In this document: positions 267 through 5,668 of the stretch, piece after piece
How positions within the stretch are numbered: position 1 is the stretch's first letter
Layout of the letters: each line of letters opens with the position of its first letter
Source of the DNA: a virus
Direction: 5' to 3' (one strand)
Virus record (IMG/VR): IMGVR_UViG_3300030108_000976
Location: 16,039-36,074 of that record
Length of the DNA: 20,036 nucleotides
The notes under the pieces: model-generated
Told to the model about the DNA's origin: nothing
Database searches by the model: none
Seen by the model: only the letters and a program-made list of their open reading frames with translations
Made by a program: the position numbers and the translations under genes

Positions 267-1016
267 ATGAATATAAATAATATTATAGAAGATATACAAT
301 TAAGTGTAGGCGAAACAAAAAGAATGAACTGCCCTAACTGTAATGGGTATAAAACATTCACAGTTACTAATAATGCAGGTGCTATTTTGTGGAATTGTTA
401 CAAAGTTACTTGCAATATTAAAGGTAAGTCGAGAGTGCGACTGACTGTAGATGATATTCGTAATACAAATAAAGTAGTTCAAGAAAGAAAGTTTGTGTTG
501 CCTGAATACATAATACCAATGGAGAAAAAACATTTACCAAAATATTTTTATGACATTGATACATCAAATATTCTACATGATGTAAAAGAAAATAGAGTAG
601 TCTTTCCCATTAGACATGATGGGGAACTTGTAGATGCAATAGGCAAAGCAGAAAAGAGATTACCTAAATGGAAGCGATATGGTAAAAGTAATATGCCTTA
701 TGTTTCTTGGTCAAGTTTGACACAGACTTGTGTGTTAGTAGAGGATTGTTTTAGTGCTTGTGTTGCTCAACAATATGGAGTAACAGGAGTAGCTATATTA
801 GGCACAAGTTTAACAGAAACACATAAACAATTCTTATCAAATAGAATGAGTAGAGTTATCGTTGCATTAGACCCTGATGCTTTACAAAGAAATCTACAGA
901 TAGCAAAGGAGTTACGAAGTTATATAATAGAAGTAAAAGTTTTGAGGTTGACAGATGACCTCAAATATCGTAAAACAATAGACATTAATAAATTACAGGA
1001 GTTAGTATGGAATTAG
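267..1016 (+). CDS. DNA primase (zinc finger plus TOPRIM)
   Basis: A 249-residue protein that should make short RNA primers for lagging-strand synthesis. The N-terminal zinc-binding domain shows Cys22-x2-Cys25 and Cys44-x4-Cys49, as in T7 gp4 and related phage primases. The TOPRIM domain follows, with the catalytic Glu159 in VLVED and the Asp pair 202/204 in VALDPDA. The start is supported by GAGGAG at 251-256, ten bases ahead of the ATG. It overlaps the helicase gene by 10 bases, so the two are probably translationally coupled. In T7 primase and helicase are one polypeptide; here they are separate, so they must associate in trans if they work as a primosome. The domain assignment is seen in the sequence; the role is family knowledge. 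Confidence 0.9.
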   Translation: MNINNIIEDIQLSVGETKRMNCPNCNGYKTFTVTNNAGAILWNCYKVTCNIKGKSRVRLTVDDIRNTNKVVQERKFVLPEYIIPMEKKHLPKYFYDIDTSNILHDVKENRVVFPIRHDGELVDAIGKAEKRLPKWKRYGKSNMPYVSWSSLTQTCVLVEDCFSACVAQQYGVTGVAILGTSLTETHKQFLSNRMSRVIVALDPDALQRNLQIAKELRSYIIEVKVLRLTDDLKYRKTIDINKLQELVWN

Positions 1017-2230
1017 CATTAATAAGAAGTTTGATGGACAAAGAGTTCTATGACAATCATAGAGGTTCTAAATGCCCATCTCGATTATTTAGTAAAGATG
1101 TAAGAAAGATAAAGGCAACGATTGATAATGCTATGGATAGGTATAGTAGAAATATTACACCTAACGAAATTGAAGCATTGTTTATGGCAAACAATTCTAC
1201 ACTTACAACTGCACAGAAACAAGCATACTCACATCTGTTCCAACAGATTGTAAAAGAAAAGCCTATGGGTGCTGATGTAGCACAAGATGTATTATCTAAA
1301 TTATTCCAACAAGTAATTGGAGAGGACATTGCTAATATAGGTTTTGATATGGTCAATGGAACTGCAACAAGCCTAGATAACTTACGTAATATACTTGAGC
1401 AGTATGGTGATGACTTTATTCCCAAGATGAAAATAGAATGGGATGATATTAGTTTTGATACATTAATGAAATATGCTGACCAAGAATATAGATGGAAGTT
1501 TAACATACCCTCTGTAGTTAGGAAAATAGAGGGTGTAAGTGGTGGTTTATTGATTGAGATAGGTGCTAGACCAAATACAGGTAAAACATCTTTTCATGCT
1601 AGTTTAATAGCTGGTCCTAATGGATTTGCACATCAAGGTGCAAAGTGTGCTATACTCTGTAATGAGGAAAGTGTGGAGAGAGTGGGGTTGCGATACTTAC
1701 AATCATCTAGTGGGTTATCTTTACAACAGATAAAACAAGACCCATCTGAAGCATTAAAAAGATATCACAAGATATACCCTAATATACGTATCAAAGAATG
1801 TACAGGTAGAGATATAGATTATGTAGAGTCTTTATGTAAATCCTTTGAACCTGACATACTCGTATTAGATATGGGGGATAAGTTTGCTAGGTATGATGGA
1901 TTTGCAAGAGGAGATGAAGCACTCAAAGCAAATGCAATTAGAGCAAGACAGATAGCAAAGCAGTATAGTTGTGCTGTATTTTATATGTCGCAATTAAGTG
2001 CAGATGCAGAAGGTAGAAGTGTATTGAACCAATCTATGATGGAAGGGTCAAGGACAGGCAAGGCTGCTGAAGCAGACCTTATGATATTGATAGGTAAATC
2101 ACCTAACGTAGAAGGGCAAGATGAAGAAAGTCCAATACGACATATTAATGTTGCTAAAAATAAATTAACTGGATGGCATGGCATTATCAATGTAGAACTT
2201 GATTATTTAACAGCGAGGTATAGTGGATGA
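1007..2230 (+). CDS. Replicative DNA helicase, DnaB/gp4 C-terminal type
   Basis: A 407-residue RecA-fold hexameric helicase. The N-terminal 150 or so residues have no motif I recognise and may be the primase-docking or linker part. The motor domain has Walker A GARPNTGKT at 186-194, the H1a acidic pair in LCNEE (Glu220/221), Walker B ILVLDMGD (Asp288), the H3 sensor SQL (Gln329) and the H4-like KNKLTGWHG near the C-terminus. This is the full motif set of the SF4 family, which unwinds the fork 5'-to-3' on the lagging strand. The ATG at 1007 is preceded by AGGAG at 997-1001 inside the primase gene. Its stop overlaps the start of the next gene as ATGA. It is part of one long + strand operon with primase and polymerase. 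Confidence 0.92.
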   Translation: MELALIRSLMDKEFYDNHRGSKCPSRLFSKDVRKIKATIDNAMDRYSRNITPNEIEALFMANNSTLTTAQKQAYSHLFQQIVKEKPMGADVAQDVLSKLFQQVIGEDIANIGFDMVNGTATSLDNLRNILEQYGDDFIPKMKIEWDDISFDTLMKYADQEYRWKFNIPSVVRKIEGVSGGLLIEIGARPNTGKTSFHASLIAGPNGFAHQGAKCAILCNEESVERVGLRYLQSSSGLSLQQIKQDPSEALKRYHKIYPNIRIKECTGRDIDYVESLCKSFEPDILVLDMGDKFARYDGFARGDEALKANAIRARQIAKQYSCAVFYMSQLSADAEGRSVLNQSMMEGSRTGKAAEADLMILIGKSPNVEGQDEESPIRHINVAKNKLTGWHGIINVELDYLTARYSG

Positions 2231-2595
2231 AATTATTTGTATCAAATTCTCCTTTACATGGAGAGGGTGTATTTGCTCAAAGAGATGCTAAAAAAGGAAC
2301 AATTATAGAACTATGTCCTTATATAGTGATTGATGATGATGATTTAAAAAAGAATAGCAGACTATTTGACTATGTTTTTACAAGCCCACAAGATGAAAAT
2401 GACTATCTTTGTGTGCTTGGATATGGTATGTTATATAACCACTCTTACAAACCCAATGTAGAGTGGAGAATACTTGAAGAAGATAATCGTTTTATAGCCT
2501 TTGAAGCAATAAAAAATATAAAAGTTGGTGATGAGATAGTTCACGATTATGGTAAAGGATATTGGGAAACTAGAAAGGAGAAAGTAAATGGGTAG
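2227..2595 (+). CDS. Small SET-domain protein (putative protein lysine methyltransferase)
   Basis: A 122-residue, almost bare SET domain. It opens with the N-terminal SET motif (SPLHGEGVFAQRDAKKG, residues 8-24), in which the GxG at 12-14 is expected to contact S-adenosylmethionine. It continues with YNHS (Asn71-His72), the pseudoknot motif, and ends with VGDEIVHDYG, where Tyr108 matches the conserved catalytic tyrosine. SET proteins methylate lysines, and short SET-only proteins occur in bacteria and viruses. The substrate cannot be told from sequence; a host or phage DNA-binding or ribosomal protein is a guess. No pre-SET or post-SET cysteine cluster is present. It starts within the helicase stop (ATGA) with GAGG at 2215-2218 as ribosome binding site, and overlaps the next gene by 8 bases, so it belongs to the replication operon. 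Confidence 0.83.
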   Translation: MKLFVSNSPLHGEGVFAQRDAKKGTIIELCPYIVIDDDDLKKNSRLFDYVFTSPQDENDYLCVLGYGMLYNHSYKPNVEWRILEEDNRFIAFEAIKNIKVGDEIVHDYGKGYWETRKEKVNG

Positions 2596-3256
2596 TAGTT
2601 TAATATATACACCAAGAAAAGATAAGGAGTTTATTGCTCCCTTTGGTCCTACTATGGGATATATGAAAATGAAAGAAGAAACTGTTATAACTTTAAACAG
2701 TATGATGAATGATAAACTAGAGGACTATTCAGATAATCTAGTTGGTAAACTTAGTGAAGAATTAAAGTTTAATGAAGAGATACTTAAGTTTGCAGAAGCA
2801 GAGTTTGGACAGTTTGTAGGTTCATATAATGCTTTTTCAGAAGTAAGAAATAGTTTAGGTAGTAGACAATTAGATGTAGAGAATAATAATTATGCTTTAC
2901 AAATTGTATCAGGTTGGTTTGTAAGACAATTTGAAAACGAATATAATCCATTACATATTCACACAAGTTGTAATCTATCTTGTGTTGGGTATTTAAAATT
3001 ACCTGAAGGTATAGAAGAAGAGTGGGAAGAAGATTATAAAGACCACCATCCTTCGCATGGACACATACAGTTTGCAAGTGGTACTTCAGCAGGGTATTCT
3101 TGTACAAACTTTTTAGTGAAACCTAGAGTAGGAGATTTCTATATATTTCCTGCACAGTTATTTCATTGTGTCTATCCATTTAAAACAAAGGGGGAACGTA
3201 GGTCGTTTAGTATGAATATGAACTTCCTAGAGATTCCAAAAAAGAAAAGTAAATGA
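2588..3256 (+). CDS. Putative 2OG-Fe(II) oxygenase
   Basis: A 222-residue protein whose C-terminal half (about residues 105-214) fits the phage-type 2-oxoglutarate/Fe(II) oxygenase fold. Residues visible as likely iron ligands are His123 and/or His125 in NPLHIHTS and the distal His193 in LFHCVYPF. Arg204/205 in GERRSFSMNMN is the expected 2-oxoglutarate-binding arginine followed by the SxN strand. VGDFYIFPAQLFH matches the G-x-l-x-x-FP-x-x-x-H signature. The N-terminal 100 residues are helical, with no recognised domain. Such enzymes hydroxylate or demethylate proteins, nucleic acids or metabolites; this one's substrate is unknown. AAAGGAG at 2575-2581 supports the ATG at 2588. It overlaps the SET gene by 8 bases and the following ORF by 4, so the two modifying enzymes are made together. 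Confidence 0.72.
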   Translation: MGSSLIYTPRKDKEFIAPFGPTMGYMKMKEETVITLNSMMNDKLEDYSDNLVGKLSEELKFNEEILKFAEAEFGQFVGSYNAFSEVRNSLGSRQLDVENNNYALQIVSGWFVRQFENEYNPLHIHTSCNLSCVGYLKLPEGIEEEWEEDYKDHHPSHGHIQFASGTSAGYSCTNFLVKPRVGDFYIFPAQLFHCVYPFKTKGERRSFSMNMNFLEIPKKKSK

Positions 3257-3384
3257 TTAAAGATGAAAAAGATATGAAAGAATTAACAAAGTTATATCTT
3301 GGTTTATTAAAAAATCTTACTGTAAAAGATATAAAAAATTTATTTAAAGAGATTAATAAATTTAAAAAGAAAGGAGATAAATAA
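3253..3384 (+). CDS. Hypothetical 43-residue Lys-rich protein
   Basis: A short ORF (begins MIKDEKDMKEL, ends KKKGDK) starting inside the stop codon of the oxygenase gene as ATGA and ending one base into the next ORF (TAATG). It is highly charged and predicted mostly helical, with 14 lysines. No family is recognised. Its credibility comes from position: without it there would be a 130-base hole in an otherwise gapless operon, and both its start and stop interlock with neighbours. AAGAAAAG just upstream is a weak ribosome binding site, so coupling with the upstream gene is likely. Confidence 0.5.
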   Translation: MIKDEKDMKELTKLYLGLLKNLTVKDIKNLFKEINKFKKKGDK

Positions 3385-3524
3385 TGTTAGATAAATTAAA
3401 ACGATTATTTTTTTGGTTTAATACAGATGAATCACAAGACCCACAAATGGATAATATATTACGAACTGTTGTAATAATTTTATTTGGGTGGTTTACCATA
3501 GCATTTATAATGGATTTATTATAA
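3384..3524 (+). CDS. Hypothetical 46-residue single-pass membrane protein
   Basis: An ORF beginning MLDKLKRLFFWFN with one hydrophobic segment near the C-terminus (about residues 27-46, ILRTVVIILFGWFTIAFI). The N-terminal part is first basic then acidic (NTDESQDPQMDN). AAGGAG at 3371-3376, seven bases ahead of the ATG, is a good ribosome binding site. The start shares one base with the previous stop (TAATG), and the stop shares one base with the next start. A short N-in or C-tail-anchored inner-membrane protein is the simplest reading. A holin, superinfection-exclusion or host-takeover peptide are all possible; sequence does not choose between them. Confidence 0.55.
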   Translation: MLDKLKRLFFWFNTDESQDPQMDNILRTVVIILFGWFTIAFIMDLL

Positions 3525-3646
3525 TGTTTGGAAGAATTTTTCACTTATTAAGTAGTGTTGAAATAGATTTAGTGCTAAAAGTTATTGTTATTTTTATTGT
3601 TGCACTAGGTATATTATCAACTGCCATACATTTTATAGGAGTATAG
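3524..3646 (+). CDS. Hypothetical 40-residue single-pass membrane protein
   Basis: An ORF (begins MFGRIFHLLSS) in which residues 14-39 are almost wholly hydrophobic, containing LVLKVIVIFIVALGILSTA. This is a clear membrane span with only short tails. It starts on the last base of the preceding membrane ORF's stop (TAATG) and ends three bases before the polymerase start. The AGGAG used by the polymerase gene (3637-3641) lies at its own 3' end. It has no separate ribosome binding site, so translation probably depends on the preceding ORF. Function unknown. Confidence 0.5.
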   Translation: MFGRIFHLLSSVEIDLVLKVIVIFIVALGILSTAIHFIGV

Positions 3647-3649
3647 GAT

Positions 3650-5668
3650 ATGAAACTTACAATAGATGTTGAGAATACAATAACTAAACGAGATGACAAA
3701 AAACATCTTGACCCATTTGAACCTACTAATAGATTAGTTTTAGTGGGTGCAAAGCAAGAAGATAACACATATCATCTCTTTGACGAAAAGAATGATTTTG
3801 CTGGGTTACAAGAGTTGTTAGACCAAGCAACTATTTTAATTGGTCATAACATTGCATATGATTTAGTTTGGTTATGGGAGTGTGGATTTAAGTATGATGG
3901 TCCTGTGTTTGATACTATGTTAGCAGAGTATGTGCTTCAACGAGGTATTAAAGAACCATTATCTCTTGAAGCCTGTGCTGAAAGAAATAAATTATATACA
4001 CAGAAACAAGATACTCTTAAAGAATATCTTAAGAAAGGATTAAATGTAGATGAAATTCCTAGAGTAGAATTGATAGAGTATTTACAAGCAGACTTAAAAG
4101 CTACACATGAATTGTCTGATAGGTTGTACAAAAAGTTAAACACAGTAGAACATTCAGGATTAATGAACACAGTTTTATTAACCAATGAGGTAGCTATTTG
4201 TTTAGCTAAGATGTATCACAGAGGATTTAAAGTAGACAAAGATAAATTACAAGAGGTGTGTTCAGAGTTTAAAAAAGAGAAAGTAGAACTTGAGAAAAGT
4301 TTACAAGAACAAGTGAGAAAATTAATGGGTGATACACCTATCAATCTTAATAGTCCTGAACAATTATCTTGGGTTATATATGGTAGAAAAGTAAATGACA
4401 AAGATGTATGGTCTAATTCTATTAATCCATATATGGCAGACTCTGAATTTAGAACTATGATAAAAAGACAAACAACACGATTGTTTAAAACAAAAGCAAA
4501 GCAATGCTCTGTATGTTTTGGCAATGGAAGAATAAGAAAGGTAAAAAAAGATGGAACACTATTCTCTCAACATAATAGATGCAAGCCATGTAATGCTAGT
4601 GGTTTTATATATATTAATAGCGACTCTTATGCAGGATTAAAATTTAGACCACCAACACCTAAATGGACAAGTGCAAATGGGTTTACGACTTCTAAAAGTA
4701 ATCTTGAAATATTAGAACGACTAGCTAAAACACATAATATGCATGATGCTGTAGACTTTTTATACAAGGTACGTAGATTAAGTGCTATAGATTCTTATTT
4801 ATCTTCTTTTGTTGAAGGTATAAATGCTTATACAAAAAGTGATGGTAAACTTCATGTGCAATTATTACAGCATAGAACTGCAACAGGTAGGTTTAGTGGT
4901 GCTAATCCTAATATGCAGAATATGCCTAGAGGTGGTACATTTCCTGTAAAGAAAGTATTTGTATCACGATTTAAAGGTGGCAAGATACTTGAAGCTGACT
5001 TTGCTCAGTTAGAGTTTCGTACTGCTGCCTATTTATCACAAGACGAGGTAGCAATCAATGAGGTTAAAAATAATTTTGATGTACATAGTTACACTGCAAA
5101 TATCATTTCGAGTGCAGGTCAAAAGACTTCTAGGCAAGATGCAAAAGCACATACCTTTGCTCCCCTTTATGGAGCAACAGGATACGGAAGAACAAAAGCA
5201 GAAGCAGAATACTACAAACACTTTACAGAAAAATACAAAGGAATCAAACTTTGGCATACCAAATTGGCTAAAGAAGCTATAAATGATAGGCTAATAAAAA
5301 CACCATCAGGTAGAGAGTTTAGTTTTCCTGACGTTATTAGGAGAAGTAATGGTAGTGTATCACATTTTACACAGATAAAGAACTATCCTGTACAATCTTT
5401 TGCTACTGCCGATATTGTTCCGATAGTTTTATTACACATTGACAAATTATTAACACATTTAAAATCATGTGTTGTTAATACTGTACATGATTCGATTGTA
5501 ATTGATGTACACCCCGAAGAAGAAAAGCAAGTTATATTTTTAATTAAAAGTGTTGACAATGACTTATCTAATTTAATTCAATCAAGATGGAATATAGAGT
5601 TTAATGTTCCATTAAAATTAGATTTAAAAATAGGTAATAATTGGCTTGACACTAAAGATGTAGTTTGA
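3650..5668 (+). CDS. polA: DNA polymerase family A with 3'-5' exonuclease and DnaJ-like zinc insert
   Basis: A 672-residue replicative polymerase. The exonuclease domain (1-160) has ExoI TIDVEN (Asp6, Glu8), ExoII HNIAYD (Asn67, Asp71) and ExoIII YLQAD (Tyr144, Asp148), so proofreading should be intact. The polymerase domain has motif A LEADFAQLEFR (Asp450), motif B RQDAKAHTFAPLYG (Arg495, Lys499, Phe503, Tyr507) and motif C VNTVHDS (His613, Asp614). Between them, residues 245-340 are an insert holding CSVCFGNG (Cys286, Cys289) and CKPCNASG (Cys311, Cys314), two CxxCxxxG knuckles like half of a DnaJ zinc domain. This polymerase layout is known from SAR116 phage HMO-2011. Phe503 aligns with E. 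coli Pol I Phe762. No helicase or primase is fused. AGGAG at 3637-3641 supports the ATG. Confidence 0.95.
   Translation: MKLTIDVENTITKRDDKKHLDPFEPTNRLVLVGAKQEDNTYHLFDEKNDFAGLQELLDQATILIGHNIAYDLVWLWECGFKYDGPVFDTMLAEYVLQRGIKEPLSLEACAERNKLYTQKQDTLKEYLKKGLNVDEIPRVELIEYLQADLKATHELSDRLYKKLNTVEHSGLMNTVLLTNEVAICLAKMYHRGFKVDKDKLQEVCSEFKKEKVELEKSLQEQVRKLMGDTPINLNSPEQLSWVIYGRKVNDKDVWSNSINPYMADSEFRTMIKRQTTRLFKTKAKQCSVCFGNGRIRKVKKDGTLFSQHNRCKPCNASGFIYINSDSYAGLKFRPPTPKWTSANGFTTSKSNLEILERLAKTHNMHDAVDFLYKVRRLSAIDSYLSSFVEGINAYTKSDGKLHVQLLQHRTATGRFSGANPNMQNMPRGGTFPVKKVFVSRFKGGKILEADFAQLEFRTAAYLSQDEVAINEVKNNFDVHSYTANIISSAGQKTSRQDAKAHTFAPLYGATGYGRTKAEAEYYKHFTEKYKGIKLWHTKLAKEAINDRLIKTPSGREFSFPDVIRRSNGSVSHFTQIKNYPVQSFATADIVPIVLLHIDKLLTHLKSCVVNTVHDSIVIDVHPEEEKQVIFLIKSVDNDLSNLIQSRWNIEFNVPLKLDLKIGNNWLDTKDVV

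Follow-up and report, generated by a model that had tools for sequence, protein, structure and literature searches.

A vSET-like SET protein and a 2OG-Fe(II) oxygenase-family protein carried as one exchanged block at the helicase-polymerase junction of an HMO-2011-type phage

The window, the whole stretch of 20,036 nucleotides analysed here, covers bases 16039-36074 of a viral record that is 36,074 bases long (L091). Its DNA polymerase is 66.9% identical to that of the Puniceispirillum phage HMO-2011 and contains a DnaJ_CXXCXGXG match that scores under the Pfam cut-off. Because of this DnaJ-type zinc insert and the identity to the HMO-2011 polymerase, the sequence places this ocean phage among the HMO-2011-type podoviruses, a group recognized by a family-A polymerase with a partial DnaJ domain and with SAR116, Roseobacter and SAR11 as recorded hosts (PMC9038755). 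The GC content of the phage is 33%, against 35-49% in the SAR116 stretches read, so its host may be other than SAR116; tRNA genes, sought for host assignment, were not found. The early region of the record also contains a cytosine-5 DNA methyltransferase-like ORF (L091 12872-13876), judged by eye from its GGSPCQGFSFSGKG motif.

The SET and oxygenase genes are intact and lie between the helicase and polymerase genes with an 8-base overlap and exact ORF boundaries, as the initial annotation described (Table 1). Neighbouring genes of this operon typically overlap by a few bases (10 for primase/helicase, 4 each for helicase/SET and oxygenase/next ORF), so the SET/oxygenase overlap alone tells little of joint function and was dropped as a sign of it. 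Three ORFs of 40-46 aa separate the oxygenase from the polymerase. These tiny ORFs at 3253-3646, two of them hydrophobic, are kept at 82-100% in the related contig L002 and have no Pfam match where tested.

Table 1. Features at the helicase-polymerase junction and the Lys-rich repeat gene of the same phage (window positions unless record bases are indicated)
Feature	Position	Strand	Evidence or remark
Replicative helicase	1007..2230	+	PF03796 (DnaB_C); left edge of insertion slot
Exchanged block	2224..3247	+	91-100% nucleotide identity with L005; mostly 96-100% with L002
SET-domain protein, 122 aa, vSET-like minimal lysine methyltransferase (predicted activity)	2227..2595	+	PF00856, PDB match, model
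2OG-Fe(II) oxygenase-family protein, 222 aa, HxH...H metal motif and R204	2588..3256	+	PF13759, PHROG 81, model
43-aa ORF, helicase-polymerase slot cargo	3253..3384	+	No Pfam match
46-aa ORF, slot cargo, C-terminal half hydrophobic	3384..3524	+	No Pfam match
40-aa ORF, hydrophobic, ATG at 3524	3524..3646	+	ORF list
Family-A DNA polymerase with DnaJ-type zinc insert	3650..5668	+	Right edge of slot; HMO-2011-type marker
Lys-rich repeat protein, 185 aa (MRGGGMAKMAKKK, MMRGGMAKKKK)	L091 2963-3520 (record bases)	minus	GGMAK repeat

The SET protein matches PF00856 (E 3.5e-15; 56.7 bits against a curated cut-off of 22.4), and its best sequence match in the PDB is vSET of PBCV-1 (1n3j; E 5.1e-16 over residues 3-117), in agreement with the family profile. 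The predicted model has a pLDDT of 88.4 and matches vSET 3kma at a TMt of 0.86. It has 320 PDB matches at E <= 0.001, and the best 50 of these 320 are all SET proteins or complexes. The SET motifs for cofactor binding and catalysis, GxGVFA, NHS..PN and E(I/V).xDYG, are present and invariant or nearly so across 44 sequences, in which G14, N71, H72, N77, E103 and Y108 are invariant; pairwise dN/dS in a small sample is 0.20-0.49. Together, these features point to a SAM-dependent protein-lysine methyltransferase of the vSET type.

Like vSET (A612L) of the PBCV-1 chlorella virus, the window protein is a minimal SET of 119-122 aa that matches end to end and has no added domains. Of the vSET active-site tyrosines Y16, Y50, Y105 and Y109, the last three correspond to Y49, Y108 and Y112 in the window SET, whereas Y16 is replaced by E13. 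We know of no histone H3 substrate in bacteria. vSET itself methylates Lys27 of histone H3, is packaged in the virion and has been linked to host transcription shut-off (PMC7019647). The Stenotrophomonas phages Ps15 and Moby also have minimal SET genes in their annotation, but the proteins are about 33% identical to the window SET, and their genomes of about 160 kb have no adjoining oxygenase annotated. The initial description of SET proteins as rare in phages is too strong, as a search of viral contigs with a narrow pattern gave 173 stretches that encode SET. A DNA search for the SET-oxygenase block among sequenced phages gave no match.

The oxygenase matches PF13759 (2OG-FeII_Oxy_5; E 3.2e-17; 63.2 bits against a curated cut-off of 27) and the oxygenase family PHROG 81 (E 4.1e-24), and falls under the cut-off of the TIGR02466 subfamily (40.4 against 62.5 bits). 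Its model (pLDDT 82.8) adopts a double-stranded beta-helix fold, with Z 11-14 against 6n1f, 3bvc, 2rg4, AlkB and prolyl hydroxylases, the best structures being 6n1f, 3bvc and 2rg4 at Z 13-14. A function read from the fold was dropped, as prolyl hydroxylases, lysyl hydroxylases and AlkB are all among the matches, which do not discriminate between them. Both 3bvc and 2rg4 are listed as uncharacterized, so they have no function to transfer to the window protein. Most enzymes of the Fe(II)/2OG superfamily have HxD/E...H as their iron triad, whereas the window oxygenase has H123-I-H125...H193. All of the 33 sequences compared have the three histidines and R204, and the middle residue (I) varies. 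HxH also occurs in the solved protein 2rg4 (HIHPHS) and in three SAR116 homologues, and is therefore a family trait, with no loss peculiar to the window oxygenase. R204, which follows the distal histidine, probably binds 2-oxoglutarate. Pairwise dN/dS in a small sample is 0-0.09, and the comparison with L002 gives 10 nucleotide changes and zero amino-acid changes. The protein is most likely a separate Fe/2OG-dependent enzyme that would hydroxylate a protein side chain. Missing catalytic residues would have counted against the initial proposal, and the alignments show the active-site residues kept in both proteins.

In the two loci read, relatives of the oxygenase with 68-76% identity are flanked by scaffold and capsid genes, these gene names being given by analogy with the HMO-2011 gene order. 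Two records, L076 (3600-4875) and L077 (5001-6303), have the oxygenase genes as a tandem pair, with 69% and about 62% identity to that of the window. Roseobacter phage CRP-345 encodes a class I SAM-dependent methyltransferase, gp61 (L308 22159-22863), just upstream of its scaffold and capsid genes, near the oxygenase position of other relatives.

The helicase-polymerase junction is an insertion site. It was compared at 76 junctions, 72 fetched by polymerase and the remainder from the window, L002 (the same contig as L216), HMO-2011 and CRP-345. The slot is empty, with a gap of 0-9 nt, at 41 of the 76 junctions, and the others hold inserts; HMO-2011 has none. Slot fillers include many nuclease genes (Endonuclease_7, HNH_3 and T5orf172/MUG113 proteins) as well as proteins of 145, 161 and, in one type, 177 aa without a Pfam match. 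CRP-345 likewise carries endonuclease VII and accessory genes in this slot, but its cargo is a thymidylate synthase, with no SET or oxygenase. The SET-oxygenase pair is present at one of the 72 junctions fetched by polymerase.

SET and oxygenase have recently moved as a unit between phage backbones that are otherwise diverged. The helicases of L002 and L005 are 58-74% identical to that of the window, far under the identity of the block (Table 1), and the left border of the jump in identity coincides with the SET start in both. In L002, the shared block runs on to about 4100, inside the polymerase gene. An Endonuclease_7 gene lies ahead of SET in L002 and L004, and a T5orf172/MUG113 gene follows the oxygenase in the record of L005. 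The exchange probably reflects recombination at a nuclease-visited site; nuclease-driven movement is read from these relatives because no nuclease is left in the slot of the window itself.

Bacterial relatives of the window SET were found at 11 loci (57-62% identity) in a single genome contig scan, all labelled SAR116, Puniceispirillum or unresolved Alphaproteobacteria and the only bacterial relatives in that scan. The SAR116 (Puniceispirillales) protein has the same length as the window SET in the variable loop after residue 54, but in the loci read its gene stands alone on the chromosome, with no adjoining oxygenase. In a profile search, 51 of 61 SAR116-family genomes each had one SET match, against eight weak matches in 189 genomes of other Alphaproteobacteria; the gene is nearly universal in its family and rare in the rest of the class. 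Full-length relatives of the oxygenase occur in 3 of 61 genomes, which rules it out as a SAR116 core gene. We found no papers describing SET in SAR116 or in HMO-2011-type phages, nor any on the function of the SAR116 protein, and the main text of the HMO-2011-type survey nowhere mentions an oxygenase or methyltransferase (PMC9038755).

Viral SET genes occur in three settings: that of the window, the replication operon of another phage lineage, and the late gene clusters of related phages. Phylogenetic analysis places the late-cluster type on one side of a 100/97 branch and the remaining three groups, SAR116 among them, on the other. The window SET belongs to the latter side, which argues against its derivation from the late-cluster SETs of related phages. 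The SAR116, other-operon and window SETs follow no resolved order on their side of the tree, which shows neither a capture straight from a host nor which way the gene moved.

A conserved feature of the late-cluster SETs is their neighbour. In 53 of 56 loci, which are partly redundant, SET is preceded directly by a gene for a Lys/Met/Gly-repeat protein, with a 1-nt overlap in 49. This protein has up to 37% lysine and C-terminal repeats such as MMRGGMAKKKK, and is likely a basic DNA- or virion-associated protein. The gene is present across HMO-2011-type phages, including HMO-2011 itself, where the copy (L307 5629-5781) is absent from the annotation. Sequence searches with this low-complexity query found no relative in sequenced phages and, without a positive control, none in SAR116, and these negatives carry little information. 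Several apparently unrelated late proteins (L091 4341-4907 and others in the late clusters of L100, L105 and L016) have a similar [YF]R.(N)KGG[ML][VL] or KGGL motif close to a lysine-rich tail, which may be a common signal for targeting or packaging.

The initial annotation proposed that the two enzymes could write and edit lysine marks on a host or phage protein, such as a nucleoid or ribosomal protein, or act on separate targets. In the writer/eraser reading, SET would methylate a lysine and the oxygenase would hydroxylate or demethylate the same site. The genes do adjoin, overlap and travel together, and in a set of 30 records selected by polymerase or by the pair, no record has just one of them (3 with both, 27 with neither). 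Some phages of a related lineage also hold both, though far apart: 6 of 44 oxygenase records there have a SET, sited elsewhere. Among viral records with SET, 7 of 33 have the oxygenase. Many records in both counts are fragments, which makes their absences soft, but single-gene records over 40 kb exist on both sides, with oxygenase and no SET at 43-54 kb (G012, G013, G029, G043 and G044) and SET and no oxygenase at 42-58 kb (G054, G056 and G058). SET in relatives adjoins the Lys-rich gene or stands in another replication operon, and in SAR116 it is mostly partnerless. The survey of co-occurrence that had been called for thus gave no consistent association. As most relatives carry one gene only, a writer/eraser relationship is weakened, and we regard it as unlikely. 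Part of the proposal holds: both enzymes are real, conserved and, judging from their sequences, apparently functional, and they move as one block. What does not hold is a lasting partnership, since the joint movement is local, among a few close phages, and a shared mark is not supported. It is more probable that SET and oxygenase are independent tools, each modifying proteins, than that they form a matched writer and eraser. The pair was also considered as a defence or anti-defence system and set aside, with no PADLOC match.

A different possibility is that SET specifically methylates the Lys/Met/Gly-repeat protein of the phage, tuning DNA packing or ejection, while the oxygenase acts elsewhere. 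The tight late-cluster linkage and the lysine content favour this, and the window phage encodes a version of its own (Table 1). The neighbourhood is nevertheless circumstantial, because the protein is also found in records where SET is not, HMO-2011 and CRP-345 among them, and because the gene in the window phage lies away from SET. In addition, the window SET belongs to a different clade from the SETs that adjoin the Lys-rich gene, and SAR116 has the enzyme with no Lys-rich relative found in a search that lacked a positive control. The repeat protein is thus a candidate substrate by neighbourhood, and such a dedicated role is possible but doubtful. It is very improbable that SET and oxygenase are passive hitchhikers with no role in infection, although mobile genes occupy this slot and the pair itself is rare. 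Sequence comparisons indicate that both genes are conserved and that purifying selection acts on them, most strongly in the oxygenase; dN/dS well below 1 is already suggested by the small sample, and the active-site residues are retained.

The explanation we prefer, to which we give roughly even chances, is an accessory cargo block in which SET and oxygenase are separate enzymes, recombined into the slot and co-inherited because both are useful. SET would have been acquired either from a SAR116-like bacterium or from a different phage already carrying it, and would have been joined with the oxygenase by recombination at the helicase-polymerase slot. During infection, it would methylate the native target of the bacterial SET or the phage's own Lys-rich GGMAK-repeat protein, and the oxygenase would hydroxylate something other than the SET target. 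The pair would be kept together since both help the phage, with neither reversing the other. A slot that collects nucleases and accessory genes accounts for the pair in the window, and a purpose-built module is not needed.

The most valuable lead, rather than the pair, is the core SET of SAR116 together with the phage relatives of it that adjoin a Lys-rich gene. SET enzymes are familiar mainly from the chromatin of eukaryotes. Here, a family-wide SET in abundant marine bacteria has relatives in at least three phage settings, one of them with a conserved Lys-rich neighbour, providing a concrete hypothesis on which enzyme and which substrate could take part in protein methylation during phage infection. 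Rather speculatively, a core SAR116 lysine methyltransferase may have been captured by several phage lineages and may methylate a Lys-rich virion or nucleoid protein in HMO-2011-type phages. If so, the SAR116 core SET would be previously undescribed, and the methylated Lys-rich repeat protein would represent a bacterial-virus analogue of histone-tail methylation.
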